From assembly GCA_021324535.1 (NCBI GenBank), contig JAJPIU010000220.1, positions 1 through 39,684 of the forward strand: a stretch of DNA of 39,684 nt. Reading direction: 5' to 3'. A model generated the notes under the pieces. The model ran no database searches. It was not told the origin of the DNA and saw only the letters and a program-made list of their open reading frames with translations. Position numbers and translations under genes: made by a program. Numbering within the stretch: position 1 is the first letter of the stretch; every line of letters starts with the position of its first letter. This document shows, one piece after another, positions 252 through 36,566 of this stretch. This DNA comes from Pseudomonadota bacterium. Its GTDB lineage: Bacteria > Chloroflexota > Ktedonobacteria > Ktedonobacterales > JADMIN01.

Positions 252-401
252 ATGGCGAAAGAGTATCCACTTCGCTTCTACGCCAATCCGTGGAAGCTGG
301 GGCTGTATATTCTCGGATCGGGTGTCTTTGTCGCCGCTGGGCTATTGATTATCCAGAGCGGCTCCCAGGAAGTTTGGGCGGGCGCGCATGGTGGATGCTG
401 A
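252..401 (+). CDS. Small single-pass membrane protein, possibly an STM3941-like fragment
   Basis: A 49-residue product starting at ATG 252, preceded by an AGAGGAAAG ribosome site at about 239-247. It begins MAKEYPLRFYANPWKL and continues with one hydrophobic helix (about residues 16-34). From memory this resembles the start of STM3941-type membrane proteins (short polar N-terminus, FYANPWK-like motif, first transmembrane helix). Those proteins continue for over 100 more residues, which are absent here. The ORF stays open upstream to 60, but the ribosome site favours 252. Its 3' end overlaps the next ORF by 14 nt in another frame, so it may be a truncated remnant rather than an intact gene. 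Confidence 0.45.
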   Translation: MAKEYPLRFYANPWKLGLYILGSGVFVAAGLLIIQSGSQEVWAGAHGGC

Positions 402-897
402 GGCGGAACAGACTGGCGCAGGCGTCTTAACGCGCGTCACCCTGGCCGACGCCAGAGACGCCATCAGTCTCGCCGTTCCCACTGGGCTGGGCATGGCGCT
501 GATCGCGGCGCTTGGCGCGAACCCAGCCACCATCGAAACCTTGCTCCGCGCGACCGACGCCATCTATCAGGGCGCCTCAGAATACCTCGTCGGCGCGTTG
601 ATCGAACATGATCGCACCGTTCTGCGCGGGCGCGCCGGGCTGGCTCCGCTGCCTATCCTCCGCCCAGAACGCGACGCCTGGACGATCTCTTCCCCCACGA
701 CCCATGGGCTGGCGCGCCGTCCCGCTCCTGGCGGACTCCTCTGGTTCGATCTCGTCAACCGCATCCTCAGCTATCGCGATCTGCCCTGGCCTATCGAGGC
801 GTTTGGAGAAATACCCATCTTCGATGGGCAAAACTACTTACTCCGCACGGTTACATACGATGTGCGTGGGCGTTGGAAGGTTCAGGCAGTCAAATAG
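388..897 (+). CDS. Hypothetical protein, 169 aa
   Basis: Open frame of 169 codons starting with ATG 388, overlapping the previous small ORF by 14 nt. The nearest ribosome-site-like sequence (AGGAAG, 367-372) is rather distant, so the start is uncertain. The protein is soluble and mildly hydrophobic, with no signal peptide or membrane helix. An alanine-rich helical N-terminal half is followed by a C-terminal part ending in a beta-rich stretch (GQNYLLRTVTYDVRGRWKV). I do not recognise the family. Codon use (GC-rich third positions) matches the neighbours, which supports a real gene. It lies 80 nt upstream of the glycosyltransferase on the same strand and may share its transcript. Confidence 0.55.
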   Translation: MVDAEAEQTGAGVLTRVTLADARDAISLAVPTGLGMALIAALGANPATIETLLRATDAIYQGASEYLVGALIEHDRTVLRGRAGLAPLPILRPERDAWTISSPTTHGLARRPAPGGLLWFDLVNRILSYRDLPWPIEAFGEIPIFDGQNYLLRTVTYDVRGRWKVQAVK

Positions 898-977: not shown

Positions 978-2930
978 ATGAATCATCTGCCTGAACTGAC
1001 GAATGCGCTCTTGCTGCATCTGGCCCTGACAGGCGTCTGGTGGGGCGCCGCGCTGATAGTAACACGCGCGCTCACTCTGGCGCTTGCCTGGCGAGGACGC
1101 AATGGCGAGTGGCTGAATGCCTGGGCGGCTCCACTGGTGATTCTGAATATCTGTCTACCCAGCGCCATTGTCTACTGGCTGGGCATGCCGCTTGCCCTCG
1201 CTGTGGCGCTGGCAGGTGGCGCGTTGCTTGTGGATGGCCTGGTCGCGGCGACGCATCGCGATTGGACCGCCATCGGCGCACAAGCGTATAGCGCCGTGCC
1301 GCTGGTGGCGCTGACCTTTTTTGTCTATGGAGTCATTCTTACCCTCGCCACGCCGATGAACTGGCTGGGCTACGCGCTCTCGGCGTTTCTGCTGGCGGGC
1401 GAGGTCGCCTCCGCCGTGATCGATCTGTATTACACGAGTGAGCTTCTTGAGGTGTTGTGTCGGCGTGTCTGGCGCAGACGACTTGGCCCATGGCTGGCGC
1501 CCGTCGCCGTCTGGCCACGGGTCTCGGTGCATGTGCCCACACACAACGAAGAGCCTGAGATGGTGATGGCGACCCTCGACGCGCTGGCCCAGCTCGATTA
1601 TCCCAATTACGAAGTGATCCTGATAGACGACAACTCCAACGACGCAGCGATCTGGCGGCCGGTGATGGACTTCTGCCGTCAGCATGGATTCAAGGTGTTT
1701 CATCTGATGCAATACCCCGGCTATAAAGCGGGCGCGCTCAACTTCGCACTACACCAGACCGATCCGGCGGCCGAATTGATCGCTGTGGTGGACGCCGATT
1801 ATGTCGTCAGGCCCAACTGGCTGCGCGAGACCGCTCCCTATTTTCTGATCGATCCTCAGCTTGCCTTTTTGCAGACACCCCAGGCGTTTAGCTATGCGCA
1901 TGATGACTGGTACCACCACGCCAATGCGCTTTCCGAAGCCTATTTTTTCTCGATAGGCATGCCCGCGCGGGCCGAACGCAACACGCTGATCTTCTGCGGC
2001 ACAATGGGGATGATCAGGCGGCGTGTGCTGGAGCGCGTGGGCGGCTGGGCCGAGTGGCTGATCACCGAGGACGCCGAGCTCAGCCTGCGGATGCTCGCAC
2101 GCGGCTACCACGGCGCATATGTCGAGAAGGTCTATGGCAGGGGAACGCTGCCCCCGACGCTGGCCGACCTCAAGCGACAGCACTACCGCTGGGCGTTTGG
2201 CAGCATCCAACTGACGCGCGCATATCTCGGTCGGCTGCTATTGGAAGTGGGCAGACACAACGGTGATCCCAGACAGCGGGCGACGCTTGGGCAGCGCGCA
2301 AAGCTCTCGCCCAGGCAGCGATATGACTATGTGATGCACGGCGCGCACTGGTATCATGCCTTCTTGCAAATCACGCTGGGGGTGTTACTCAACGTGATTG
2401 CCTTGCTGCGTGTCTTTGACATTCCTTTCACACTGCGCCCATTGGTGGCCTCAGCAATGTTGTTACCGGTGTTGGGAGTGGTGATCGGTGTGGCGCGAGT
2501 CTTGTGGTCGTCACGAGTCGTGTTGCGGTGTTCCTGGCGCGACGCCTGGGGTGTTTTGTTTGCCCTGTTGGCAGTACATTGGCCAGTGGCGCGGGCGTGC
2601 GTCGCGGGATTCTATCGCCGTCGGGCGCGCTTCTTGCGCACGCCCAAGAGCGGCTCCTACGTCACATTGGGCTATGCGTTCCGTTCCACGGTGGTCGAAA
2701 GCATACTGGTGGCGCTGGCGCTCGCCACGGTGGGCGCGCTGCTCTGGCGCGGGGTCTCGGCGGAGACGCTGGCGTTGTGTTTTCTGCTGCTCTGGCAGGC
2801 GTTTGTCATGGCGACAGCCCCGATTCTCGCGCTGATCCAGGCAGGGTACGACTTCAGGCGACGACGACGCGCCCAGCGCGCCATCGTCTCAGCCAATCAA
2901 TCGAACGCGGCGCTAGCGGGACGCCGATAG
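978..2930 (+). CDS. Membrane glycosyltransferase family 2 (cellulose-synthase-like)
   Basis: 650 residues. Four or so N-terminal transmembrane helices (residues 1-150) are followed by a cytosolic GT-A domain and several C-terminal membrane helices. The processive GT2 signature is complete: nucleotide-sugar Asp in IDDNSN (about 217), DAD (about 272), the catalytic-base TED (about 364) and QHYRW (about 400). Proteins with this architecture use a UDP-sugar to polymerise beta-linked glucans or related polysaccharides and extrude them across the membrane. The exact sugar cannot be read from sequence. There is no PilZ domain in the C-terminal part and no BcsB-like partner nearby. The kinase-like gene starts 9 nt downstream, so the two are probably cotranscribed and functionally linked. 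Confidence 0.85.
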   Translation: MNHLPELTNALLLHLALTGVWWGAALIVTRALTLALAWRGRNGEWLNAWAAPLVILNICLPSAIVYWLGMPLALAVALAGGALLVDGLVAATHRDWTAIGAQAYSAVPLVALTFFVYGVILTLATPMNWLGYALSAFLLAGEVASAVIDLYYTSELLEVLCRRVWRRRLGPWLAPVAVWPRVSVHVPTHNEEPEMVMATLDALAQLDYPNYEVILIDDNSNDAAIWRPVMDFCRQHGFKVFHLMQYPGYKAGALNFALHQTDPAAELIAVVDADYVVRPNWLRETAPYFLIDPQLAFLQTPQAFSYAHDDWYHHANALSEAYFFSIGMPARAERNTLIFCGTMGMIRRRVLERVGGWAEWLITEDAELSLRMLARGYHGAYVEKVYGRGTLPPTLADLKRQHYRWAFGSIQLTRAYLGRLLLEVGRHNGDPRQRATLGQRAKLSPRQRYDYVMHGAHWYHAFLQITLGVLLNVIALLRVFDIPFTLRPLVASAMLLPVLGVVIGVARVLWSSRVVLRCSWRDAWGVLFALLAVHWPVARACVAGFYRRRARFLRTPKSGSYVTLGYAFRSTVVESILVALALATVGALLWRGVSAETLALCFLLLWQAFVMATAPILALIQAGYDFRRRRRAQRAIVSANQSNAALAGRR

Positions 2931-2939
2931 ATCAGGTGA

Positions 2940-3971
2940 ATGGAGGCAGAGGTGGCGCTGAAAAAACGCCCGCGTACAGCAAAGCTGGCCGACGCCTGGC
3001 TGACGGAGCCGCTCGAAGGGCGTTATGCGCTGCGCCGTGTGGTAGCAGAGGGAACAACAACGCGCGTCTATTGTGGAGATGACCTCGCGCTGGGTGACGC
3101 TGTGGCCGTCAAACGTATCCTCGCGCCCGAACTTAACGCGCGCTTCCTCTGGCGGTTTCGCGCCGCCGCCTATGCCTTGGCTATCTATCCCCTGCCGCAT
3201 TGTATTCCCGTGCGCGATTATGCGCTGATTGGCTCTGATGCGATGGTGGTCATGTCATGGCAGCCAACACCCACACTGGGGACACATCTGCGCGCGCGGA
3301 GCCGGTTATCGGTGACGATCACCTCACAGTTGGCGCTCTGGCTGGCGGAGGCGCTTGCCGATCTGCACAGCCATGATCTGCTACATCTGGGGCTGACACC
3401 CAATAATATCTTTCTGGATCGGCAGGTGGGCGTGAAGGTGGCCGACGCAGGGCTGGCGCGGCTGCTCAGCGACACCGGCCTGACGATGACCGGCGGCAAC
3501 CTCACCACGACATTGCCTTACCTTGCGCCTGAGCAGATCGCCTATACGCCACTCTCGCCCGCGACGGATGTCTATGCCTTTGGCGTCATTCTCTACCAAA
3601 CATTGACCGGCGTAACGCCCTATCCACAGCGAACGCTGGCCGAGTATATGGCGGCCCTCGCCAGCCAGGAACACGGCGCCACTCCCCGCCCCAGCCAGCG
3701 CATCCAGGGGATTCCTCCCGCGCTCGACGACGTGATCGCGGCGTGCCTGAACCATGATCCACAGCGCCGCCCACGCGATGGCGCCGCATTGGTGGAGCGC
3801 CTGCGCGAGGCCAATGTGGCTGATGTTACCGATATGGCGACCGTGCAGATGTACGTCACGCATGCGACCACGCAACACCGCATCGCCTCCTTGAAGCTCT
3901 CACTGACGCGCCGTCGCCAACGGGCAACGGCCGGTGAGCAACGGCAGAAGCGTGGTCTTGCGCCTCGGTGA
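2940..3971 (+). CDS. Ser/Thr protein kinase-like protein lacking the catalytic Asp (predicted pseudokinase)
   Basis: 343 residues with a Hanks-type kinase fold over about 20-290 and a basic tail (RRRQRATAGEQRQKR). The ATP-binding Lys is kept (VAVK, K58), as are APEQ and the DVYAFGV helix. The catalytic loop normally reads HRDLKPxN but here is HLGLTPNN: the catalytic Asp is Gly151 and the Lys is Thr153. DFG is DAG (169-171), and the glycine loop keeps only its central Gly. It may bind nucleotide but should not phosphorylate efficiently. No transmembrane helix or PASTA domain is present. The start could also be GTG 2952, which has GGAGG at 2942-2946 with ideal spacing. Position right after the glycosyltransferase suggests an allosteric partner; this is inference. 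Confidence 0.85.
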   Translation: MEAEVALKKRPRTAKLADAWLTEPLEGRYALRRVVAEGTTTRVYCGDDLALGDAVAVKRILAPELNARFLWRFRAAAYALAIYPLPHCIPVRDYALIGSDAMVVMSWQPTPTLGTHLRARSRLSVTITSQLALWLAEALADLHSHDLLHLGLTPNNIFLDRQVGVKVADAGLARLLSDTGLTMTGGNLTTTLPYLAPEQIAYTPLSPATDVYAFGVILYQTLTGVTPYPQRTLAEYMAALASQEHGATPRPSQRIQGIPPALDDVIAACLNHDPQRRPRDGAALVERLREANVADVTDMATVQMYVTHATTQHRIASLKLSLTRRRQRATAGEQRQKRGLAPR

Positions 3972-12911: not shown

Positions 12912-13108
12912 AGACTTCTCCCTACTGCGACGACGCTAGTGTTTGGCGTCGTCGAGCCTGGCCTGACGCGCGCTTGCGTCGCGTCAATCGGGCGGGTCAC
13001 AGCATCGAGGCGTCGCGCGCCCTCCCGCGCCAGCCATTGCTTGATCGGCTCGGCTTTGGGCGAGGGGACGGACTGGATGATACGCAGCAGTATCTCGGCG
13101 TCAGTCAT
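12806..13108 (-). pseudogene. BRO-N domain C-terminal half, truncated ORF
   Basis: 100 codons from ATG 13106-13108, overlapping the upstream gene's stop by 4 nt (ATGA) with a GGAGGGAGAAGGAG ribosome site. Residues 1-45 (TDAEILLRIIQSVPSPK, then AEPIKQWLAREGARRLD) are the canonical second half of the BRO-N/DinD domain. The first half, which normally precedes DAExLLRIIQS, is missing from this ORF. After about residue 46 the sequence has no family resemblance and runs 106 nt into the next gene in another frame. Its role, if expressed, could be to complement or modulate the first protein. More simply it is the severed 3' piece of an antirepressor-like gene. Confidence 0.75.
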
Positions 13109-14046
13109 GCTCCTTCTCCCTCCTTGCTCTCCTGTCGAGTGCTGTGCAGAAAGACGCTCAAGTCTTCCCAGGTTGCAATCCCACTCGCTTCCGCCTGCGC
13201 GAAGATGGCAAAGCGCGGCCCGGGTTGGATGAGGCCACAGCCTATGGCCTCACGTAGGGAGCGAAATAAGGGTGTGCTGGTAGTGGCGCTATGCAGGTCG
13301 TACAAGGCAAGAATGACATGCTGGACTCGTTCCGCTGACACAGAGGAAAGAGCAAGTCTGTTCCTCGCTACCTCGGCGCTGTTATAGGTAGGTTGTTCTG
13401 TGTCGAGATAGTGTTGCTCACGCGATTCCAATAGTTCAGGATTGGTGACTTCTTCCACCACAGCGAACGCGAACACCTCCTCACCATAGGTGTTCCATGC
13501 CTCTTGTAATCGACAGGCATGATGTTTCCCTCGGCGCAACAATGTTTGGTGTTGAGCAAAGCGGGCGGAAATGTTCGTGCTGCTGCCGATATAGCGCTCG
13601 TGGGTGATGGTATTGACGATGGCATAGACGCCGCCTGCGCCCGAAGAGATATATTGATCTTGATCTTGGCTTTGTGTGATGCTGCCCACTCGGCGATGCT
13701 GAGCAGGTAGGGTATGAATCAAGGAGACGAGAGTAACAAAGTCGGCGCAATCGGTCTCGCGTTGTTTGCCATCGGGCGCCCGTAGTTTGAGAGGGTTACA
13801 TGCTGCCACCAAGTGGCGAAACTCTTCGTCAAAGATGCGGTTTTTCATCATCGCCCAATACACACGCGGCGTTGGGGAATCGGTCAATAGACCAATCACA
13901 TCGATCACGGAGAAGAACAAGCGTCCATCATGCCAGAGGCGGCGAATGGAGCGATCCGCTTGCTCTTCGATGATCGCCAGGGCGTTGTCGTCAGGGATGG
14001 TTTCGTTTGCGGGGTCTTGCTGGGGATGCTCGTCGTGTGTGGACAT
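13105..14046 (-). CDS. BRO-N domain fused to GIY-YIG nuclease
   Basis: 313 residues from ATG 14044-14046 with AAGGTGA upstream. Residues about 33-102 are a BRO-N module (IRRLWHDGRLFFSVIDVIGLL, then VYWAMMKNR, and KLRAPDGKQRETDCAD), a DNA-binding domain of phage and viral antirepressors. Residues 138-222 form a GIY-YIG nuclease: GVYAIVN and RYIGSS (the two strands), R162, the helix with LQEAWNTYGEE, metal-binding E207 or E210 in LESREQ, and a terminal Asn (Y221-N222). About 90 further residues have no assignment. After DCAD the BRO-N sequence diverges (FVTLVSLIHTLPAQ), while the canonical continuation appears in the overlapping downstream ORF. The protein is likely a site-specific endonuclease guided or regulated by BRO-N. 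Confidence 0.8.
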   Translation of the reverse strand: MSTHDEHPQQDPANETIPDDNALAIIEEQADRSIRRLWHDGRLFFSVIDVIGLLTDSPTPRVYWAMMKNRIFDEEFRHLVAACNPLKLRAPDGKQRETDCADFVTLVSLIHTLPAQHRRVGSITQSQDQDQYISSGAGGVYAIVNTITHERYIGSSTNISARFAQHQTLLRRGKHHACRLQEAWNTYGEEVFAFAVVEEVTNPELLESREQHYLDTEQPTYNSAEVARNRLALSSVSAERVQHVILALYDLHSATTSTPLFRSLREAIGCGLIQPGPRFAIFAQAEASGIATWEDLSVFLHSTRQESKEGEGA

Positions 14047-26359: not shown

Positions 26360-27649
26360 ATGGAGCAAACAGTTCAAGGGCGCATCCTTGATGGCGATCT
26401 TGAAACGCTAGGCTTACAGGCGACGTTGAAAATGCTCGCGCTCGGCGGCAAAACCGGCGCGCTCAACGTTGTCTCCGGGCAGGAGCGTTTGCGTGTCATC
26501 CTGGAAAACGGTCATATTGTCGCGCTTGAAGAACCACAGTTGCCTGTTCCCGATCTGCTCGAAATCTTCCGGCTGTTGGGGCGTTTTCGGGGCGCCCCAC
26601 CGGCTGATCTGCGCCAGATCGTTTCCCAGAATCCCGCGTTTCAGTTGGAGATTCTCCAGCAGCGGCGCGTGATCTCCGCAGAAGAAGCGCAACGCTATTA
26701 TGAGTTCGGTGTGACCCTGGCTATCAGCCGGGCGGTGCGCTGGGAACACGGACGCTTCGACTTCAACCGGGACATCGCTCCCAGCCAGGGACGCGCACGG
26801 CAGAGGAGGCCACTGAACGTTGACCATATTCTGCTCGATGCGCTACGCCTCGCCGACGAGCGCGATTATTCCGGCGCGCCTGCGTTCTCTCGCCTGGCTG
26901 TGGCGCGTTGGGCGCCACAGTTTCGTGGCGATCCCCAGCAGTTGAGCCTCACTCCCGATGAAGTCAACGTCCTCTCCCTCTCCAATGGCCGACTTCCCCT
27001 CTACGCTGTCTCGTATGGCTTGCTCCTGCCGGAGGCCCGTGTCTTCCAGGCGTTGCAGCGCTTGCTGGAAAAAGGGCTGGTGGAGCTTGTTGACGCGCGT
27101 ATGGAGGCGGAACTGGAACATAGCTTGATCAATTTGATCACCAAATACCAGAGCCAGTTGGCGCAGAGTGGGCGAGTCGCGCCGGAGCAACACATGCTTG
27201 AGCTAGCGTTGACTATGGGGGAATGCGTCAACGATCTTCTGCGCCATCATCGCCAATATGCGCGGATGCTGCGCGGGCGTGGCGACATTACCCCCGCAGA
27301 AGCCAACCGTTTTATCGAGAGCCGTTTTCGCTCACTGCTGGATCACGTTGTGCGGGAATACCCACGCATGGACGAGATCATCAGGTTCAACGGCGGCCTG
27401 ATCGATCTGACGGACGTGCGTCAGCTCGACCGCGTGGTGCGCGGACGTGAGTTGATCGAATGCTATTGGGATGCTACCCAACTGTTTCATCACCTGATGC
27501 AGTTGGTGTTTGACCAAACGGTGAGCGATGAAGTGGGGCAACCCCATTCGGGGCGGCACTTCGAAGATTTGTGGGCGGTGTTCCTCCGCGAGATTGACGA
27601 CGAGATGCAGCGGCTGGCAAGTCGCTATAATGCGGCGTCGGGCTGGTAG
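26360..27649 (+). CDS. DUF4388 (PATAN-like) protein, first gene of the chemosensory operon
   Basis: 429 residues. The N-terminal domain (about 8-130: LETLGLQATLKMLALGGKTGAL, VILENGHIVALEEP) is the DUF4388/PATAN module, also found at the front of cyanobacterial PatA/PixG regulators. A middle part (about 150-260; LSLTPDEVNVLSLSNGRLPLYAVSYGLLLPE, split, then VFQALQRLLEKGLVELVD) looks like a winged helix. The C-terminal part is helical. No receiver domain is attached; instead a separate receiver gene follows about 140 nt downstream. The protein probably binds partner proteins to pass the CheA signal to motility or second-messenger enzymes. Start ATG 26360 has a weak GGGGAG upstream. Confidence 0.8.
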   Translation: MEQTVQGRILDGDLETLGLQATLKMLALGGKTGALNVVSGQERLRVILENGHIVALEEPQLPVPDLLEIFRLLGRFRGAPPADLRQIVSQNPAFQLEILQQRRVISAEEAQRYYEFGVTLAISRAVRWEHGRFDFNRDIAPSQGRARQRRPLNVDHILLDALRLADERDYSGAPAFSRLAVARWAPQFRGDPQQLSLTPDEVNVLSLSNGRLPLYAVSYGLLLPEARVFQALQRLLEKGLVELVDARMEAELEHSLINLITKYQSQLAQSGRVAPEQHMLELALTMGECVNDLLRHHRQYARMLRGRGDITPAEANRFIESRFRSLLDHVVREYPRMDEIIRFNGGLIDLTDVRQLDRVVRGRELIECYWDATQLFHHLMQLVFDQTVSDEVGQPHSGRHFEDLWAVFLREIDDEMQRLASRYNAASGW

Positions 27650-27740
27650 GCGGAGCATGCGCTGTCGTGCGGAGTTGTACAGTGTTGTCGTGAACGCAAA
27701 TGTTTGCCAGCAAGCCTGCCATCTGGCAAGCGCATACGTA

Positions 27741-27764
27741 TACGGGTAACAGTACGGGTAACAG
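27741..27764 (+). repeat. 12-bp tandem duplication upstream of the first receiver gene
   Basis: TACGGGTAACAG twice head to tail, ending 25 nt before the GTG start at 27790. Confidence 0.85.
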
Positions 27765-27789
27765 ATGTTGTGAGGAAGTGAGGGAGACA

Positions 27790-28224
27790 GTGAGTCCAGT
27801 GGTGTTGGTGGTAGACGATAGTCCCACCGTACGCAAGATCGTCCAGTTGACGCTGCAACGCGAGCGCATCGAAGTGGTGACAGCCAGCGACGGGTTGAGC
27901 GCGCTGGCGGCGGTGGCTGACGCGCAACCTGATCTCATCCTCCTCGATATCATGTTGCCGCGCATGGATGGCTATAATATCTGCCATGTCGTGCGCAGGA
28001 GCATGGCCTATCATGATCTTCCAATTATCATGCTGAGTGGTAAAGATGGGCTATTCGATAAGATGCGTGGCAAACTCGCTGGTTCTACTGAATATATCAC
28101 CAAGCCCTTTGATTCGTCTGAATTAGTGCAGACGGTGAAACGTTACCTGGATACGCCAGAGGCGCATGAGCGCGCCGCGCGGCGGCAGAAGAATCGCATG
28201 AGCCGCCTTCGCCGGCGTGTCTAG
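27790..28224 (+). CDS. Single-domain response regulator (PilG/CheY-like)
   Basis: 144 residues from GTG 27790, preceded by GAGGGAG at close spacing; the longer frame from 27700 would add a non-homologous N-terminus. Receiver motifs: VVDDS (acidic pair), phosphoacceptor in LILLDIMLPRMDGY, Ser/Thr in IIMLSGKD, Lys in YITKPFD. A basic tail of about 15 residues (RRQKNRMSRLRRRV) follows. It should be phosphorylated by the CheA encoded downstream. Order in the operon corresponds to PilG. The basic tail might bind nucleic acid or a membrane. Confidence 0.9.
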   Translation: MSPVVLVVDDSPTVRKIVQLTLQRERIEVVTASDGLSALAAVADAQPDLILLDIMLPRMDGYNICHVVRRSMAYHDLPIIMLSGKDGLFDKMRGKLAGSTEYITKPFDSSELVQTVKRYLDTPEAHERAARRQKNRMSRLRRRV

Positions 28225-28312
28225 CGCGTCTGATTGATCTCACCCGCCAGGGGCCGCCGTAGTTCTGATTCGTAGTTTGCTGTATTCATCACTGGTTTGA
28301 GGAAGGCAAGAA

Positions 28313-28693
28313 ATGATGCCGACGCCGAAAGTGCTGGTCGTAGACGATAGCTGGACCGACCTGACGCTGATTGCAACTCCCCTGCGCGAAGGGGGCTTTG
28401 ATGTCATCACTGCGGTTGATGGCGACGAGGCGCTTGAGAAAGTGATTCGTGAGCGCCCGCAGTGTGTGCTGCTCGATATTGTGCTCCCCAAGCAAAACGG
28501 CTTCCAGGTCTGTCGGCGGCTCAAGCAAATGGAGCAGAGCCGCCACATCCCCGTCATCCTGATCAGCGGAAAGAGCACCCCGCTCGATAAACGCTGGGGG
28601 TTGCAGCAGGGCGCCGACCTCTACATCACCAAGCCCTTCGATAAAGAAGAACTGGTGAATAGTGTGCGCAGCCTGACCGGCTTCGGCGTCTGA
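28313..28693 (+). CDS. Single-domain response regulator (PilH/CheY-like)
   Basis: 126 residues from ATG 28313 (or the next ATG, 28316), with AGGAAGG upstream. Receiver motifs: VVDDSW, phosphoacceptor in VLLDIVLPKQNGF, Ser in VILISGKS, Lys in YITKPFD. Nothing beyond the receiver fold. It has a hydrophobic Trp after the acidic pair where most receivers have a smaller residue. In Pil-Chp systems the second receiver often acts as a phosphate sink or antagonist of the first; that role here is inference from order. Confidence 0.9.
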   Translation: MMPTPKVLVVDDSWTDLTLIATPLREGGFDVITAVDGDEALEKVIRERPQCVLLDIVLPKQNGFQVCRRLKQMEQSRHIPVILISGKSTPLDKRWGLQQGADLYITKPFDKEELVNSVRSLTGFGV

Positions 28694-28707
28694 TCGGCGG
28701 CTCATCA

Positions 28708-28738
28708 CGCCCCCTTCCTCGATGTCGAGGAGGGGGCG
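28708..28738 (+). repeat. Strong intercistronic hairpin without T-run
   Basis: Stem CGCCCCCTTCCTCGA (28708-28722) / TCGAGGAGGGGGCG (28725-28738) with one bulged T. It lies 14 nt after the receiver stop and 67 nt before the CheW start. It lacks a T-run, so it is more likely an mRNA processing or stability element than a full terminator. Confidence 0.7.
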
Positions 28739-28804
28739 CATTGTGTCTACTGAGAGGAAACAAGCCAACGACACGCCAACGGCAAGCCAACGAAAGGAGA
28801 AGTA

Positions 28805-29626
28805 ATGAGCGATTCGAGTAATCCAGGGAATCCGCGCGATCCGCGTAACCCACACGGTGGGCAAGAGCGGCAGAGCGGCGCCGCAAGCCAACCGGACTTC
28901 GCAAGTTCATTGGGAGGACAGGCTGGCGGGCGCGGCGCGGCACAGCGCGCTCAGATGGCTGAGATGTTGCGCCAGGCATTGAGCACAATGGGATCGGGCG
29001 GGGCCAACAATAGCGCGCTCACCCCAGAGGCGCTGATGGAGCTTGCGCGGCGCGCGGGCATCAGCAATCCGGCGCAGATACCCGGCTTGCAGCGCATGGT
29101 GGGTGAGAACGCAAGCGCGCTGACCCAGGTTCCCCAACATATCATTTTTCAGCTTGGCGGCGTCGCCGATGACGACTTCGCGCCCATTATCTGCGCATTG
29201 CCTTCTGAGGCGACCCAGGGCTTGGAGCGCATCACAGAGATCACCCCAGTACCCAATACGGTAGATTGGGTGCTTGGCATTATGCAGGCGCTAGGGGTTA
29301 TCGTTTCAGTAGTTGACCTGCGCCGCTTCCTGGGGCAGCCCTCGTATGGCGTCACACCGTTCAGCCGCCTGGTGATCGTCGCGCGCAATGATATGGCGAT
29401 TGGCTTCCTGGTGGATACTGTGATCGTGATGCGTCCGCTCGATCCGCCGCTCGATCAGGCGCAGGCATCCGCATTGATGGCGCAAGCGGTTCCGGCGTGG
29501 CTTCAGCCGTATGTCGCGGGGATGACGCGGGTGGATGGGCGCGCGGTTGCCTTGCTCGATCCCGATCAACTGCTCTTCAATGATCGCATTCATCGCTATC
29601 GTGTCAAAGAGCGTGTCAGCGCCTGA
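28805..29626 (+). CDS. CheW-like coupling protein
   Basis: 273 residues from ATG 28805, preceded by AAAGGAG. The N-terminal 110 residues are disordered and rich in Gly/Asn/Ala (NPGNPRDPRNPHGGQ). The CheW domain covers about 115-270, with VDWVLGIMQALGVIVSVVDLRRFLG (split) and FSRLVIVARNDMAIGFLVDTV. CheW proteins dock CheA onto methyl-accepting proteins at the membrane. It corresponds to PilI in Pil-Chp systems. The long flexible N-terminus is unusual and may tether the array or bind other partners. It sits 167-207 nt upstream of the receptor gene in the same operon. Confidence 0.9.
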   Translation: MSDSSNPGNPRDPRNPHGGQERQSGAASQPDFASSLGGQAGGRGAAQRAQMAEMLRQALSTMGSGGANNSALTPEALMELARRAGISNPAQIPGLQRMVGENASALTQVPQHIIFQLGGVADDDFAPIICALPSEATQGLERITEITPVPNTVDWVLGIMQALGVIVSVVDLRRFLGQPSYGVTPFSRLVIVARNDMAIGFLVDTVIVMRPLDPPLDQAQASALMAQAVPAWLQPYVAGMTRVDGRAVALLDPDQLLFNDRIHRYRVKERVSA

Positions 29627-29636
29627 GCCGTTGCGC

Positions 29637-29666
29637 TGGGGCAGAGTGGGGCAGAGTGGGGCAGAG
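29637..29666 (+). repeat. 10-bp tandem repeat, three units, after the CheW stop
   Basis: TGGGGCAGAG three times head to tail, starting 10 nt after the TGA stop (29624-29626). Confidence 0.95.
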
Positions 29667-29833
29667 CGCCATTCCTGATGGACGAGAGATAGGCGCAAGC
29701 TAAATGGCCTATTGTGTAGGCAAACACATGACAGAACACGCCGCATGGTATAGACTACAGAATAGTTCTTCGGGCGTTTTCATGGTGTTCATGTGTGGTG
29801 TTGTGGATGTTGGAAAGAGAAGGCTGGTCACTG

Positions 29834-31816
29834 ATGAGTACATCCCGACCAGGATGGGCGCTCGGCGCTCAACTGAATCTCTATATGGTGATTGCCATTG
29901 TCACGCCAGCAGTGGCGGTTCTTGCGTTGGGCGCTTTTCTCATCAGTAATCAAGGGGGATCGCTCACCCAGACGGTGCTCTGGGCCATTACGCTCATTGT
30001 GACGGCGGTGGCGCTGCTGATTATCTCAGGCGTGTTGTTGCGCATGCGCATCGTCACGCGTACCCGCCTGTTGGAGCTTGCCGAGGTCTGCCGCCAAGTG
30101 AGCAGCGGCGCACGCTCGATGCGCGCGCAGGTGGTGGGTGACGACGAACTGGCTACCCTCGCATCGGGCATCAATGCGCTGCTCGATGGGCTGCCCGTCT
30201 CACCGACGGCAACACGCGCCAACGCCGCAGATTCACCCGACGCCGCGCTGTTGCAGGCGCAGATCGAGCGGTTACTGCAAGAGGTGAGCGCCGTCGGCGA
30301 TGGCGACCTGCGGGTGCAGGCGGAGGTCACACCGGACACGCTTGGCGTCTTGGCGGACTCGTTCAACTATATGATCGAGGAATTGGCGAAGGTCGTCGGG
30401 CGTGTGCAGGCGACCACCTTCCAGGTGACGAACGCGACGCGCCGCCTGCTCGACCGTTCGGCTGAGATCGCCTCAGCCTCCGAGACACAGGCCGTGCAGA
30501 TCTCGCAAACGTCGCAGGCGGTGGGCCAGCTTGCCGACTTCGTGCAGCTTTCCGCGCAAAACGCGGTGGCCGCCGCCGAGGTGGCCCGCGACGCCATTCG
30601 TAGCGCGCAGATGGGCGCTGAGTCTGTCACGCAGACCATCAATGGTATGGTGCATATCCGCGACAACGTACAGGATACCGCGAAGAAGATCAAGCGCCTG
30701 GGTGAACGCTCCAAGGAAGTGGGCGAGATCACCAGCCTGATCGAAGACATCGCCGAGCAAACCAACTTGCTGGCCCTCAACGCGGCGATTCAGTCGGCGA
30801 TGGCGGGCGAGCATGGCAGGGGCTTCGCGGTAGTGGCCGACGAGATTCGCGTGCTGGCCGAGCGTGTGGCGAAAGCCACGCAAGAGGTGACGACGCTGGT
30901 GCAGGGCATCCAGGGCGACACCTACGAGGCAGTGGTCGCGATGGAAGAAAGCACGACCGAGGTAGTCAACGGCTCACGCCTGGCCGACGCCGCAGGACAA
31001 GCACTGAAGAGCATCAACGAGGCGGTCGAGCAACAGGCGAAGATCATTGACGACATCGCGCGGGTGGCGGGCGAACGCGAACAAGTGGCCGAGGCGGTCG
31101 CCCAGGCTATGGTTCAGATCGCAGAGGTCACGCGGCAGACAAACAGCGCCACGCAAGACACCACCCGCAGCGTCAGTTACCTTGCCGAACTGGCCGAACA
31201 ACTTCGCGCATCGGTCGCCACCTTCCGGCTGCCCGATCAGATCGCCGAGCAGGCTGGCCTGAACCAACTGGCCCAGATGGAAGAAGAATACCGCGCGGGG
31301 ATGAACATGCCTGCCATTGGCAACTGGGGAGACGGCATGGGGCAGTTGCCCGCGCTCCCGGCGGCCTCGGCGCAGGCCATGAACCAGAGCATGGGGATGG
31401 GGGCCGCTGGCCCCTACCACGGCTATGAAGGTGGATTCGAGAGCGGCTACGCCGAAGGGTTCAATGGCGGCTACGACACAGGTGGCTATGCTGATCCTAG
31501 AAGCGCCTCCGTCGGCGCAGGCGGCTACGCTTCGGGCTACCCGATGGATGGCGCTGGCGTCGGAGCGTTCGACCCGCTGGCTCCGCTGAACAACAATGGC
31601 GCACAGCCGGATGCCGCTTTTGACTTTGGTGGGTATAATAGTCCTTGGGTCAATCCATCGCTGAACCCACAGAACATACCGAATCAGCCGGGGCAGATTC
31701 CTGGATACCCTGAGCAGTCACTCTATGGCTCTGATCAGGCGAATACCGGGAGCAACGGAAACAACGGGAATCTGATGAATCCCAATGGAACGCCGTTCTC
31801 GCCCGACCACTATTAG
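29834..31816 (+). CDS. Methyl-accepting chemotaxis protein, PilJ-like, no extracytoplasmic sensor
   Basis: 660 residues from ATG 29834 (AGAAGG upstream); the frame is open to 29795 without a better site. Two membrane helices (about 12-35 and 45-68) are joined by a loop of only about 10 residues. A HAMP-like segment and coil follow, then the signalling domain (about 200-470). The hairpin tip reads [26 protein letters not shown] (split), closer to PilJ than to classical Tsr-type (IEAARAGE). The last 165 residues are Gly/Tyr/Asn/Pro-rich ([18 protein letters not shown]). No CheR-binding pentapeptide is visible. The receptor must sense membrane, cytosolic or partner-borne cues. It corresponds to PilJ. 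Confidence 0.9.
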
Positions 31817-31838
31817 CCAGATTAGCCAGATTAGCCAG
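31812..31838 (+). repeat. 9-bp tandem repeat, three units, over the receptor stop codon
   Basis: ATTAGCCAG three times. The TAG in the first unit is the receptor stop (31814-31816); because the period is 9 bp, two more TAG codons follow in the same frame (31823, 31832). Confidence 0.95.
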
Positions 31839-31892
31839 CGGTACGAGCCACCACGATGAGTCACAGAGAGTAGCCAAAGATAGGCGCGATGT

Positions 31893-34800
31893 ATGGGTGA
31901 AAATTTCGATAAGACCGCCATCATGGAGAGCTTTCTCGACGAGGTCAACGCCTACCTCCCAGAGATAGAAGCCAACCTTGATCGCCTCCAGCAGACTCCT
32001 GACGACCTTCGTGCGCTACAGGAAACCTATCGGCGCACCCATACGATAAGTGGCTCGGCCTCGATGATGGAGTTCCAGGCGCTGGCGCATGTCGCCCAGG
32101 GGATGGAAGAAATCCTTGATGAGGCGCTCGAACGCCAGGAAGCCCTGAGCGCGCCGACCATCGCGCTGCTCCGCCGCTCATGCGGGCGGCTGAGACGCAT
32201 CGTTGAAAACATCCGCGAGGAGCAAGACGACAGCGCGATCATCGCTGAAGACGATCAGGATCGCGCCGCCTGGCGTGGGTCTGGCGCGACCAGCAGCGGC
32301 TCAGGCGGGCTAGCCGCGCCTGGAGCAGACGCCTCATCTGCGGCTGGCCCCGAACCGCCGGATTGGCTTGCAGCCTTCGCCGGGCCAGCCAGCGCCAATG
32401 GTTCGTCGCCCGCCAACGCCGCCCCCGCAAGCGCAGACGCTGCACACACAGCGTCTAGCCCAGGAGCCGAGGCGACATCACCTTCGGCGCAACGCACTGA
32501 TCCCTGGGGAGTCTCTGTCTCGAATCTGCCGACGGGCGCTGCTCCGGCAATCAGCCCCCCTGGCGCACAGACCTCACAGCCGCCAGCGGCGCCGCATACG
32601 CCACAGGCAGGCGCGGCGGTTCCCTCTACTCCTGGCGCTGAACCCTATCCCGATCCCTGGGGGCGTTCGCAGGCAAGCGCCTTTGATCCGTTTGCGCCAC
32701 CATCCGCCGGGCAGCCAGCAGAAACGCCTACCACGCCGCATCTACGGGCAGACATCAGCGAGGTACGCACATCGCCCTCCCTGGGAGGGCCTTCTTCTAG
32801 CCCCAGCGCGGCGCTTCCTCCGCCTCCTGCTGCTCCACAGGCTGGCATGCTTGTCAGCGTTGACGCAGCGGGCGCACTGGCGACCTTCGATGAGTTGCGC
32901 GCCGACGAAGAGGCCGTGCGTCGTCAGGCGGCGACGCTGCGCACCATCGTGGCGATGATGCGCGAGGCTGCGCAGGCGATGGAAGACGAACGCGCCGAGC
33001 TTGGCTCGTTTCTCGATGGCTCCAGCGATGCGCTCGACCGACTCGAGGATTGGGTGGGGCAGCAGATGGGGCTTGACCTGCGCCGCAGTCCCGAAGGCGT
33101 GCGGAATTACCTACCCCTCTCGGTCATCTGGGTGACAACCACCCGCCTGAAGAAGCTGATCGCGCTGCTAAACTCGTCGAGCCGCAACCTGACCGTCACG
33201 CAGGAGCAGATTGACGAGGCGCTGAGCGAGTTCCATGCGGCGCTTGACAGTTTTGGCTCCCTGTATAGCGCGCTGGCAAGTGTTGGCCCTGCGCCCGATG
33301 GCGGCTTCAGCGCCACCGTCGCGCAGATCACCTGGGCGCCTGGGCAGACAGGGCAGGCTCGTAGCCCCCAACCAACACAGCCTACCTTACCTGTGCCAGC
33401 GCCTCAGCCATCCGGCGAAGGCGCCGAGCAGACGCTTTCCGTCGGCGCGCGCGCCGACCTCGAACGCGCAGTACGCGAGGAGTTGCGCCGTTCGCTCGAA
33501 GATGAAGTGCGTGAGGAACTGAGCACCGAGCTACGCCGTGAAGAAGAACAACGGCTGCGCGGTGAGCTTGAAATTCAAGTGCGGCGCCAGATGTTGGCCG
33601 AGCTTGCCCCCGGCCTTGGCGAAAGCTCGGTCACGGTGCGCGATGGCTCGGTGCATGTGCAAACCTCCGGCCCGTTCATTGCTGTGCGGCCGCCCAAACA
33701 GGTGCAGGTGACTGACGAACAATCGCCCGAAGCGTTGGAGGTCTTCCGCGACGAGGCGCAGGAACATCTGCAAACCATCACCGACGGCATCAAACAGCTT
33801 GAGCAATATCCTGGCGATATGAGCGCCGTGCAGGCGATTCGCCGGGCAATGCACACGCTGAAGGGCGCAGCGGGCATGATGGGCTTTACGCTGATTCAGC
33901 GATTGGCGCATACCTCGGAAGACCTGCTCGATCAACTGACGGACGGCGCATTCGCCATCACCCCAGCGATGGTTGGCCTGACGCTCGATACCGCCGAGGC
34001 GCTTGATCAACTGGTGTCGGGCGCCATCCCCGATCCGGCGGATCAGCAGCGGCTTGTGCAGGCGCTGATCGTGCGCTATGCGGCGATCACCGGCGCGACG
34101 GATGTGCCCGATCTTACGGCGGATGAGCCAGGGAATGAGGCCATCGCCATTGCGCTTGGTGAGGAAGAAGAAGCCTCGGCGGCCCCAGCCGCAAGCGATG
34201 GCTCGGACTTGAGCGTGCGGCTGCAACTGAGCAAGCTCGATGAATTGGTGAGCATCTTCAGCGAACTTGTGCAGCGGCGCACCATCGCCGAAGAACGTAT
34301 CACACGCCTGGCGCAGAAAATCACCGAGGCAATGGGGATCAGCGCGCGCGTGCGCGATCTTGGCGTGCAGATCGAGGAACGCTTCGAGACGGTGATGTTG
34401 CCAAGCCGCGCCTCGGCAGGGATGATCACTGGCCCTAATGCGAATGCGGTCAATGCGCCGCGTGGCGCGCCTGGCGCGCGGAACGCCAACGGCGCGAATG
34501 TCGGGTTCGATAACATCGAGCTTGATCGCTACGACGAGTTCCACTACCTCTCGCGTGGCCTCACCGAGGGGGTAGGAGATCTTATCTCGCTGAGCCGCGA
34601 GATGGAACGGCTCGTCGGCGAACTTCAGTTCTCCTCGACCGTTGAGAACCGCCTGAGTTCCGACTTCCAGGATCGCCTGTTGCGTGCGCGGCTGGTGCCG
34701 GTGCGTTCGCTGGCCCCCCGGCTCTATCGTGCGGCGCGTACCTCGGCGCAAAAAGAGGGCAAAGAGATCGAGTTCTTCATCGAGGGCGGCGATACCGAGG

Positions 34801-36566
34801 TAGACCGCAAGGTCGTCGAGGCAATGGAAGGGCCGCTGCTACACCTTGTGCGCAACGCTGTCAACCATGGCATCGAGCGCCCGGCGGATCGCCAGGCTGT
34901 GGGCAAGCCACGCGCCGGGAAGATCGTCGTCTCTGCTGCGTATGAGGGCAACCAGGTGGTCATCTCCGTGAGTGACGACGGCGCAGGGATTGACCCCGAA
35001 CGCATCCGCACAACGGCTGCCGCCCGTGGGCAAATCGATCCAGAGGCGCGGATCACCGAGCGTGAGGCGGTCAATTTGATCTTCCAGCCAGGTGTTTCGA
35101 CGGCGGCGACCATCACCGAGGAAAGCGGACGCGGCGTCGGGCTGGACGTGGTGCGCGACGCAGTAGCGCGCCTGCGTGGCACGGTAGAGGTTGACCCTAC
35201 CATCGGACATGGCGCCACCTTCACCATGAAGTTCCCCATCAGCTTGCAGATCGCTCGTGCGGTGTTGGTGCGCGTTGGCTCGCAGACGCTGGCGATTCCA
35301 ATGGCGGTGGTAGAACACATTGGCCGTCTGGACTACTATCAGCGGGTGAATGGGCCAGCCCCGGCGGTTGAGGTGCGCGGGGAGCGGTATCCGCTGGCGC
35401 GCCTGAGCGACTATCTTCAGCTTCCGCCAACGCCGGTGGAAGAACGCTCACCAGTGCTATTGATCAACGTCGGGCGGCATCGTCTGGCAATGCTGGTTGA
35501 CGCGATTGTGAACCAGCAGGAGGTCGTCTCGAAGCCATTGGGCGCGCATCTGCGCGATGTGCCAGGGGTGGCGGGTGCGACAGTGCTTGGCAACGGCCAG
35601 GTGGTGTTGATCCTCGAGATGCTCGATCTGCTGGCGCAACAGCCCTTCAAGCCGGTTGCCCTGCCAGCCCCAGGCGCGCGCGCGCAGCCGACCTCGGCGA
35701 CACAGCCTGTTTCACCCAACCAGTGGGCGGCGGCTTTCGGTGGGCAGCCTTCAGCGGGATCAACGCCACGCCAACAACTGCCGCAGCCTCCCATCCCACC
35801 GGGTATGCCAGCGCCCAACACACGGCCTGCGCAGCCACAGTCCTATGCACCGGCTGCACCAGGCGGCCAGATGGGGCAGATCAGGCCCGCCAGCCGCCCG
35901 AATATGTCAAATCAGCGACCGGCCGCCCAACCAATCTCACCGTGGCAAGGGCAGCGCATCCCAGAGCAGACGCCATTTGAGCGTCCGCAGGTCCCCTCTA
36001 CGCCCATCGGGAGTATGCCAGGAGGGTCGCTGGGTCAAATGCCAATGGCAAACCTGCCGCCATTCATGCAACGTCCTCCACAGCGCCCACAGGGTGTGTC
36101 TCCTATGGGACAATCGCCAACAAGCGGCGGGCAGGGTGGTCAGATGAACCAACAGGCGCGGCAGCGGCTGGGGCCACCCCCAGGCGCGCGCAACGCCTAT
36201 GTGTTGGTGGTGGACGACAGCCCAAGCGTGCGGCGTGTGGTCAGCAATATGCTGAAGTCGTATGGCTGGGAGGTGCAGACGGCGCGCGACGGCATCGAGG
36301 CGCTGGAGGTGATGTCGCGCCAACAGCCTGCGGCAGTCCTGCTGGACATCGAGATGCCGCGCATGGATGGCTATGAACTGATCGCCACGGTGCGCAGCCA
36401 GGAGCATGATCGCCATCTCCCGCTGATCGTGCTGACCTCGCGCGCGGCGGCCAAACACCGCCAGCGCGCCGATCAGCTTGGCGCCAGCGCCTACCTCGTC
36501 AAGCCGTATCAAGATGAGGAGTTGCTCAAGCTCCTTAATGATCTGATTTCGGCGAATATGGGCTAA
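31893..36566 (+). CDS. CheA hybrid kinase with two Hpt domains and a C-terminal receiver (ChpA/PilL-like)
   Basis: 1557 residues. Order: Hpt1 (about 1-110, THTISGSASMM, His50); Ala/Pro/Ser-rich linker (about 110-330); helical region (340-480); Arg/Glu coiled coil (515-575); Hpt2 (610-740, MHTLKGAAGMMGF, His654); dimerisation and ATPase region (about 770-1110; LVRNAVNHGIERP near 985, DDGAGIDPERIR, GRGVGLDVV); CheW-like domain (about 1115-1250); Pro/Gln-rich linker (about 1255-1430); receiver (about 1433-1555, phosphoacceptor in LLDIEMPRMDGY near 1487). It autophosphorylates an Hpt His and passes phosphate to the two receivers encoded upstream. His50 sits in THTISGSA instead of HTLKGSA, so Hpt1 may be atypical. 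Start ATG 31893 has only a weak ribosome site. Confidence 0.93.
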   Translation: MGENFDKTAIMESFLDEVNAYLPEIEANLDRLQQTPDDLRALQETYRRTHTISGSASMMEFQALAHVAQGMEEILDEALERQEALSAPTIALLRRSCGRLRRIVENIREEQDDSAIIAEDDQDRAAWRGSGATSSGSGGLAAPGADASSAAGPEPPDWLAAFAGPASANGSSPANAAPASADAAHTASSPGAEATSPSAQRTDPWGVSVSNLPTGAAPAISPPGAQTSQPPAAPHTPQAGAAVPSTPGAEPYPDPWGRSQASAFDPFAPPSAGQPAETPTTPHLRADISEVRTSPSLGGPSSSPSAALPPPPAAPQAGMLVSVDAAGALATFDELRADEEAVRRQAATLRTIVAMMREAAQAMEDERAELGSFLDGSSDALDRLEDWVGQQMGLDLRRSPEGVRNYLPLSVIWVTTTRLKKLIALLNSSSRNLTVTQEQIDEALSEFHAALDSFGSLYSALASVGPAPDGGFSATVAQITWAPGQTGQARSPQPTQPTLPVPAPQPSGEGAEQTLSVGARADLERAVREELRRSLEDEVREELSTELRREEEQRLRGELEIQVRRQMLAELAPGLGESSVTVRDGSVHVQTSGPFIAVRPPKQVQVTDEQSPEALEVFRDEAQEHLQTITDGIKQLEQYPGDMSAVQAIRRAMHTLKGAAGMMGFTLIQRLAHTSEDLLDQLTDGAFAITPAMVGLTLDTAEALDQLVSGAIPDPADQQRLVQALIVRYAAITGATDVPDLTADEPGNEAIAIALGEEEEASAAPAASDGSDLSVRLQLSKLDELVSIFSELVQRRTIAEERITRLAQKITEAMGISARVRDLGVQIEERFETVMLPSRASAGMITGPNANAVNAPRGAPGARNANGANVGFDNIELDRYDEFHYLSRGLTEGVGDLISLSREMERLVGELQFSSTVENRLSSDFQDRLLRARLVPVRSLAPRLYRAARTSAQKEGKEIEFFIEGGDTEVDRKVVEAMEGPLLHLVRNAVNHGIERPADRQAVGKPRAGKIVVSAAYEGNQVVISVSDDGAGIDPERIRTTAAARGQIDPEARITEREAVNLIFQPGVSTAATITEESGRGVGLDVVRDAVARLRGTVEVDPTIGHGATFTMKFPISLQIARAVLVRVGSQTLAIPMAVVEHIGRLDYYQRVNGPAPAVEVRGERYPLARLSDYLQLPPTPVEERSPVLLINVGRHRLAMLVDAIVNQQEVVSKPLGAHLRDVPGVAGATVLGNGQVVLILEMLDLLAQQPFKPVALPAPGARAQPTSATQPVSPNQWAAAFGGQPSAGSTPRQQLPQPPIPPGMPAPNTRPAQPQSYAPAAPGGQMGQIRPASRPNMSNQRPAAQPISPWQGQRIPEQTPFERPQVPSTPIGSMPGGSLGQMPMANLPPFMQRPPQRPQGVSPMGQSPTSGGQGGQMNQQARQRLGPPPGARNAYVLVVDDSPSVRRVVSNMLKSYGWEVQTARDGIEALEVMSRQQPAAVLLDIEMPRMDGYELIATVRSQEHDRHLPLIVLTSRAAAKHRQRADQLGASAYLVKPYQDEELLKLLNDLISANMG

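Follow-up and report, generated by a model that had tools for sequence, protein, structure and literature searches.

The window analysed here is a 39,684-nucleotide stretch of contig JAJPIU010000220.1 (assembly GCA_021324535.1), part of a 4.65 Mb genome in 279 contigs (G000, about 91% complete) from the class Ktedonobacteria of the Chloroflexota. Near its start lies a gene for a cellulose-synthase-like glycosyltransferase (GT) of family GT2, followed by a gene for a protein with the fold of a Ser/Thr kinase but a degenerate active site (Table 1). The initial annotation described these two genes as a coupled pair and missed a third conserved gene upstream, which codes for a small protein, ORF169. 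A protein of this type (about 170 residues) precedes the GT in all three genomes that we found to contain a GT orthologue (G000, G012 and G021). Because this gene is kept upstream of the GT in the relatives, the conserved unit is ORF169 - GT2 - pseudokinase.

Table 1. Positions of the three genes and of the motifs discussed in the text
Feature	Position	Strand	Remark
ORF169, small protein, first gene of the conserved unit	388-897	+	G012 and G021 have homologues immediately before the GT
GT2 synthase, cellulose-synthase-like, 650 residues, about 10 hydrophobic stretches, no PilZ	978-2930	+	Pfam/NCBIfam; orthologue identity; clade
GT motif DDN (first Asp pair)	1626-1634	+	
GT motif DAD (DxD)	1791-1799	+	
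GT motif TED (catalytic base)	2064-2072	+	
GT motif QHYRW (QxxRW of processive enzymes)	2178-2192	+	
FLRTPK, corresponding to FxVTxK in the gating loop of BcsA	2631-2648	+	Motif meaning from the available part of PMC10237404
Pseudokinase, 343 residues from ATG 2940 or 339 residues from GTG 2952	2940-3971	+	
Lys58, ATP-site lysine kept (VAVK)	3111-3113	+	
HLGLTPNN, degenerate catalytic loop (residues 149-156; Gly151 for Asp; Asn156 kept)	3384-3407	+	
DAG (residues 169-171), metal-binding Asp169 kept	3444-3452	+	
C-terminal tail beyond the kinase fold, basic; Thr (T-[VI]-x-[MIL]) aligned in three of three family members	3807-3968	+	Possible functional site

Results

Gene order

The GT gene ends with a TAG codon at 2928-2930, and the ATG at 2940 follows after 9 nucleotides, as initially reported. 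A GTG at 2952 is the likelier start of the pseudokinase, because a GGAGG at 2942-2946 makes it the more ordinary one; the gap to the GT gene would then be 21 nucleotides. Promoter and terminator scans of the unit revealed nothing decisive as operon signals. ORF169 matches no Pfam family at E ≤ 1. The window protein and its G012 homologue align with a pair score of 127, compared with 28 ± 4 for 300 shuffles. AlphaFold models of ORF169 (three sequences) and of the pseudokinase (two sequences) reached mean pLDDT (predicted local distance difference test) values of 35 and 43, which is too poor, and they were not used. The family to which the window belongs contains weaker relatives of ORF169 (E values from 7e-9 to 3e-7) in four genomes; in three, the relative adjoins a plsX-like gene (a name read from its translation), an observation that suggests no function.

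The GT2 synthase

The GT matches the Pfam family Glyco_tranf_2_3 (E = 3.4e-28), and its closest relatives of solved structure are those of BcsA (PDB 7lby and 4hg6). The catalytic motifs D, DxD, (T)ED and QxxRW are all intact, as the initial annotation had claimed, and together with the flanking transmembrane helices they point to a processive GT2 synthase; FLRTPK can be added to them. With BcsA the protein shares the GT2 core, the D, D, TED and QxxRW residues and the gating-loop motif, whereas it lacks the PilZ domain that BcsA has and scores only 135.3 bits against the BcsA equivalog model TIGR03030 (CelA; cutoff 699.1). No PilZ domain was detected by Pfam in the GT, in agreement with the initial annotation, or anywhere else in the genome. 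The genome contains three GGDEF matches, two of them above cutoff.

Two other groups of synthases resemble the window GT. BgsA, the mixed-linkage beta-glucan synthase of Sinorhizobium, is also a BcsA-like GT2 enzyme without PilZ in which the gating loop is kept, and according to the available part of its description it still binds cyclic di-GMP (PMC5567048). This source assigns to BgsA a cyclic di-GMP-binding C-terminal tail of 139 residues, whereas only about 25 residues separate the last hydrophobic stretch of the window GT from its C-terminus, which leaves no room for PilZ or for a BgsA-like regulatory tail. The GH17-GT2 synthases of the "Orphan"/NdvB type likewise lack PilZ and have a gating motif, FFRTPK, close to FLRTPK (PMC10237404, available part). 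These enzymes carry a GH17 domain, whereas Pfam detected no such N-terminal domain in the window GT; those GT2 relatives with a GH17 match among the loci found are 33-38% identical to it.

The kinase-like protein

The downstream gene codes for a protein with a Pfam Pkinase match (E = 9.3e-29) and a kinase fold by PF00069 (101.1 bits, cutoff 31.7) and PF07714 (103.4 bits, cutoff 23.1). No hydrophobic transmembrane stretch was detected in it. Its family comprises three known members, the other two being encoded in G012, and all three have lost the helix-C Glu, the catalytic Asp of HRD and the Lys of HRDLKP while keeping Lys58, Asn156 and Asp169. The helix-C Glu is replaced by Ala, Ala and Val across the three (Ala76 in the window protein), so that the Lys-Glu pair formed with strand beta-3 in active kinases is broken. 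The Arg of HRD is replaced by Leu and the Lys of HRDLKP by Thr in the window protein. Both Gly151 in place of the catalytic Asp and the retention of the ATP-site Lys, two claims of the initial annotation, are correct, and the loss of this Asp is conserved: both G012 members read HLN, with Asn at its position. Loss of the HRD Asp agrees with the definition of a bacterial Ser/Thr pseudokinase given in the available text of PMC12599244, and the assignment of the window protein to this class is supported by its sequence. Two further claims, DAG for DFG and a degraded glycine loop, hold in part. The Phe of DFG alone is changed and the metal-binding Asp is retained, and the first Gly of the loop is replaced by Ala with the middle Gly38 kept, so the degradation is partial. 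The third Gly position of the loop is occupied by other residues in many ordinary kinases of the same genome too.

Loss of the catalytic Asp is uncommon in G000, since 26 of the 28 other kinases that we could align have kept it (31 other kinase loci were matched; three were not recovered). Neither chance nor a sequencing error explains HLGLTPNN: the catalytic loop differs at three codons, and the pattern recurs in the orthologue. The genome contains two other degenerate kinases with Asn for the catalytic Asp, one with HRNLSAA and AEFG (L112, G000:C39:18648-19307) and one with HDNLKPSN (L120, G000:C60:16382-17164); both fall outside the pseudokinase clade in the tree.

Conservation and descent

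Among 47 genomes of the class, GT orthologues (54-55% identical) were found solely in G000, G012 and G021, and they form one clade (100/100). The next matches in the class are 34-43% identical (one fragment reaches 52%), and the complete ones are longer, at about 800 residues. The two closest GT relatives come from Chloroflexi metagenome-assembled genomes. G012 (JAJYBV010000006.1) belongs to another family of the same order and has the same gene order, ORF169 - GT - pseudokinase, with different genes flanking the unit; its pseudokinase (319 residues, HLNLNPDN) is 32-35% identical to that of the window. Besides G000, both genes can be read in G012 alone, and there the pairing is conserved, as the initial annotation would have it. 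The case that would speak against this annotation, in which the same GT adjoins a homologue whose HRD is normal, was sought and not found. In G021, the ORF169 and GT genes are present and the contig ends inside the latter.

The unit is rare, with the synthase in three and the pseudokinase in two of the 47 genomes. A profile of the three pseudokinases singled out these three alone in the class, with the next best match at 4.6e-57; their own scores are inflated because the profile was built from them. Of 400 genomes sampled from the whole phylum, G000 and G012 alone matched the pseudokinase at 1e-58, and in a similar phylum sample a GT relative at 1e-100 was present in 34 of 400. A plasmid search returned kinases at 29-34% identity among the matches listed (the best 8 of 122 records). 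The literature searched, mostly outside subscription journals, yielded no description of a GT2 synthase gene with a pseudokinase gene next to it.

The third pseudokinase (L077:288-1274, on contig 14 of G012; 328 residues, HLNLNPRN) is encoded 61 bases downstream of a gene for an HD-domain protein. All three members form one clade (100/99) on a long stem, placed with modest support (86/81) next to L002-type kinases. The G012 copies group as sisters (99/92). If descent was vertical, this suggests that the copy without a GT neighbour arose by later duplication and that the pairing is ancestral. Identity between G000 and G012 is 35% in the pseudokinase domain, compared with 55% in the GT and 54, 56 and 73% in three pairs of ordinary kinases. 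Such a low value is expected of a fold that is no longer constrained by catalysis.

Comparison with known pseudokinases

The initial annotation had pointed to the kinase-like domain of MviN, a likeness that stands as analogy and not as kinship. This domain (ActPs3, Mycobacterium) and the window protein both have a Ser/Thr kinase fold without catalysis and a tie, putative for the latter, to envelope polysaccharide synthesis. The MviN domain belongs to a membrane protein, and neither the ATP-site Lys nor the DFG motif survives in it, whereas the window protein is separate and without a transmembrane stretch, and its Lys58 and Asp169 set it apart from ActPs3, in which all three motifs are degraded (PMC12599244, available part). 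ActPs2 shares the replacement of the HRD Asp by Asn with both G012 members. It differs in having Arg for the beta-3 Lys and, in most cases, a deletion in DFG, where the window family keeps VAVK and DAG or DLG (same source). GLW pseudokinases, as described there, have GLW for HRD, Leu or Trp for the Lys and a C-terminal transmembrane segment, compared with HLG or HLN, a retained Lys and no such segment here. The window protein thus fits none of the three families compared, ActPs2, ActPs3 and GLW, out of a set that also includes ActPs1, CP1, DYD and DLHK. In its available text, PMC12599244 describes bacterial Ser/Thr pseudokinases as mostly of unknown function, contains neither "chloroflex" nor "cellulose", and has "glycosyl" twice, in the reference list.

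Related synthases and other genes of the window

Related GT2 synthases of about 810-830 residues are encoded at L048:7574-10000 and L049:7455-9938. At its C-terminus the former matches PP-binding (8.4e-7), a phosphopantetheine attachment site, which would give a polysaccharide synthase an acyl-carrier-like domain. GT paralogues of about 800 residues (L039:2478-4889, L042, L043, L044 and L045) end in a low-complexity tail rich in Thr, Pro and Ser, and in at least L039, L042, L043/L165 and L045/L172 the GT gene is preceded by a gene for a small hydrophobic protein, which makes another conserved pair. Elsewhere in the window, a chemosensory cluster (26360-36566) codes for a DUF4388 protein, a methyl-accepting chemotaxis protein with HAMP and a CheA-like hybrid of 1557 residues with Hpt, CheW and receiver domains. 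An open reading frame on the minus strand (13105-14046) matches TIGR01453, a subfamily of group I intron endonucleases (71 bits, cutoff 56).

Discussion

We give about an even chance to the interpretation that the products of the three genes synthesize an exported polysaccharide and control its synthesis, with the dead kinase acting in trans as a regulator or scaffold of the synthase. The GT2 protein, with its intact active site and gating motif and no regulatory domain in cis, would be a processive, membrane-embedded glycan synthase. The soluble kinase-fold protein encoded downstream, which is probably dead or nearly so as a catalyst, would bind to the cytosolic face of this enzyme or bring a partner there. 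Its action may depend on a nucleotide, because the Lys, Asn and Asp ligands for nucleotide and metal are kept in three of three members. ORF169 would be the third component. The word "coupled" in the initial annotation thus holds for the gene order; we infer physical contact and regulation. Overall, this earlier interpretation is partly supported. EcpK, a tyrosine pseudokinase of Myxococcus, is reportedly a dead kinase needed for exopolysaccharide production (PMC12004946). It is of the bacterial tyrosine kinase type and belongs to a Wzx/Wzy pathway, whereas the window protein has a Ser/Thr kinase fold and is encoded beside a synthase; EpsW-EpsZ is a precedent for a sugar transferase under the control of a bound protein (PMC12802240, available part). 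Precedents for bacterial Ser/Thr pseudokinases as scaffolds are MviN and EssB (PMC12599244, available part).

It is rather unlikely, though the most serious of the alternatives, that the kinase-like protein has a function of its own and is merely a co-transcribed neighbour of the synthase. Several observations count for this explanation and against a role at the synthase. The GT-pseudokinase pair is seen in G000 and G012 alone, and in the latter the two genes are separated by 184 nucleotides, unlike the tight spacing in the window. The assembly of G021, which is 79% complete, contains no member of the pseudokinase family elsewhere. The second G012 copy adjoins no GT, so that membership of the family does not entail a synthase neighbour; the HD-domain protein beside this copy may be a second type of partner. 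Most relatives of the GT also do without a kinase neighbour. Among 29 loci from the phylum search (L162-L190, with flanks of about 1.5 kb) and 28 loci from GTDB contigs, a kinase lies within the flanks in G012 alone, and searching 26 GT loci of other phyla (L085-L110; flanks up to 7 kb, shorter at contig ends) by tblastn with the pseudokinase revealed none. We can therefore exclude that the pairing is a general trait of the GT family. Furthermore, the commoner paralogues of about 800 residues in the class have neither PilZ nor a kinase immediately beside them. Lack of PilZ alone consequently does not point to a kinase, and the contrast initially drawn, control by protein binding instead of cyclic di-GMP, is weak. 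In G003, an ordinary kinase gene (IFRDLKPAN, Asp kept) lies about 2.9 kb from such a paralogue on the opposite strand, with miaA-like and protease-like genes in between (names read from translations); we take this proximity as incidental. On the other hand, the order ORF169 - GT - pseudokinase is kept across two families although the other flanks differ. The genome has about 30 kinase loci, which also makes it unlikely that a relative of this particular protein came to adjoin the orthologous GT by accident.

That the protein is still an enzyme acting on the synthase or on ORF169, either as a weak kinase or by AMPylation or glutamylation like SelO and SidJ, seems quite unlikely. Retention of Lys58, Asn156 and Asp169 in all members is consistent with such an activity, and SidJ has the same retained pair, VAVK and DLG, with HRD lost (PMC12599244, available part). 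What argues against it is that the helix-C Glu, the HRD Asp and the catalytic-loop Lys have disappeared from every member.

A more specific form of the regulatory hypothesis, to which we assign a distinctly low probability, is that the free-standing pseudokinase takes over the role of PilZ: it would sense ATP or another nucleotide through the Lys/Asn/Asp pocket and gate the FLRTPK loop in trans. If this were true, polymer export would be tied to cellular energy status, and cellulose-synthase-like enzymes would have a second mode of gating, independent of cyclic di-GMP.

The aligned Thr in the tail raises the prospect of a relay, in which an active PknB-type kinase would phosphorylate this residue and an FHA protein would be recruited to restrain the synthase. 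FHA domains prefer a particular residue at position +3 after the phospho-Thr. In the alignment, the three members share one tail Thr followed by a hydrophobic residue at +3, and the genome offers 17 FHA matches besides its kinases; MviN sets the precedent (PMC12599244, available part). However, the tails are short and divergent and only three sequences were aligned, so that the aligned Thr may be due to chance, and the unit contains no FHA gene. We consider this relay very improbable. Finally, rapid divergence and the lost catalytic residues might suggest a decaying pseudogene, but this idea is hardly credible because the reading frames are full-length in three copies, Lys, Asn and Asp are kept, and the frame with its coding-like codon-position composition has remained intact in two very different genomes although the third-position guanine-cytosine content of the G000 and G012 copies differs greatly (0.71 and 0.41).

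The unit is real, conserved and unusual, yet rare, and the synthase and the pseudokinase may be coupled in function. Persistence of a pseudokinase without transmembrane segment beside a polysaccharide synthase across two families provides a concrete partner to test. If the proposed role of the pseudokinase is correct, protein-based control would be added to a class of synthases that is best known for control by cyclic di-GMP.

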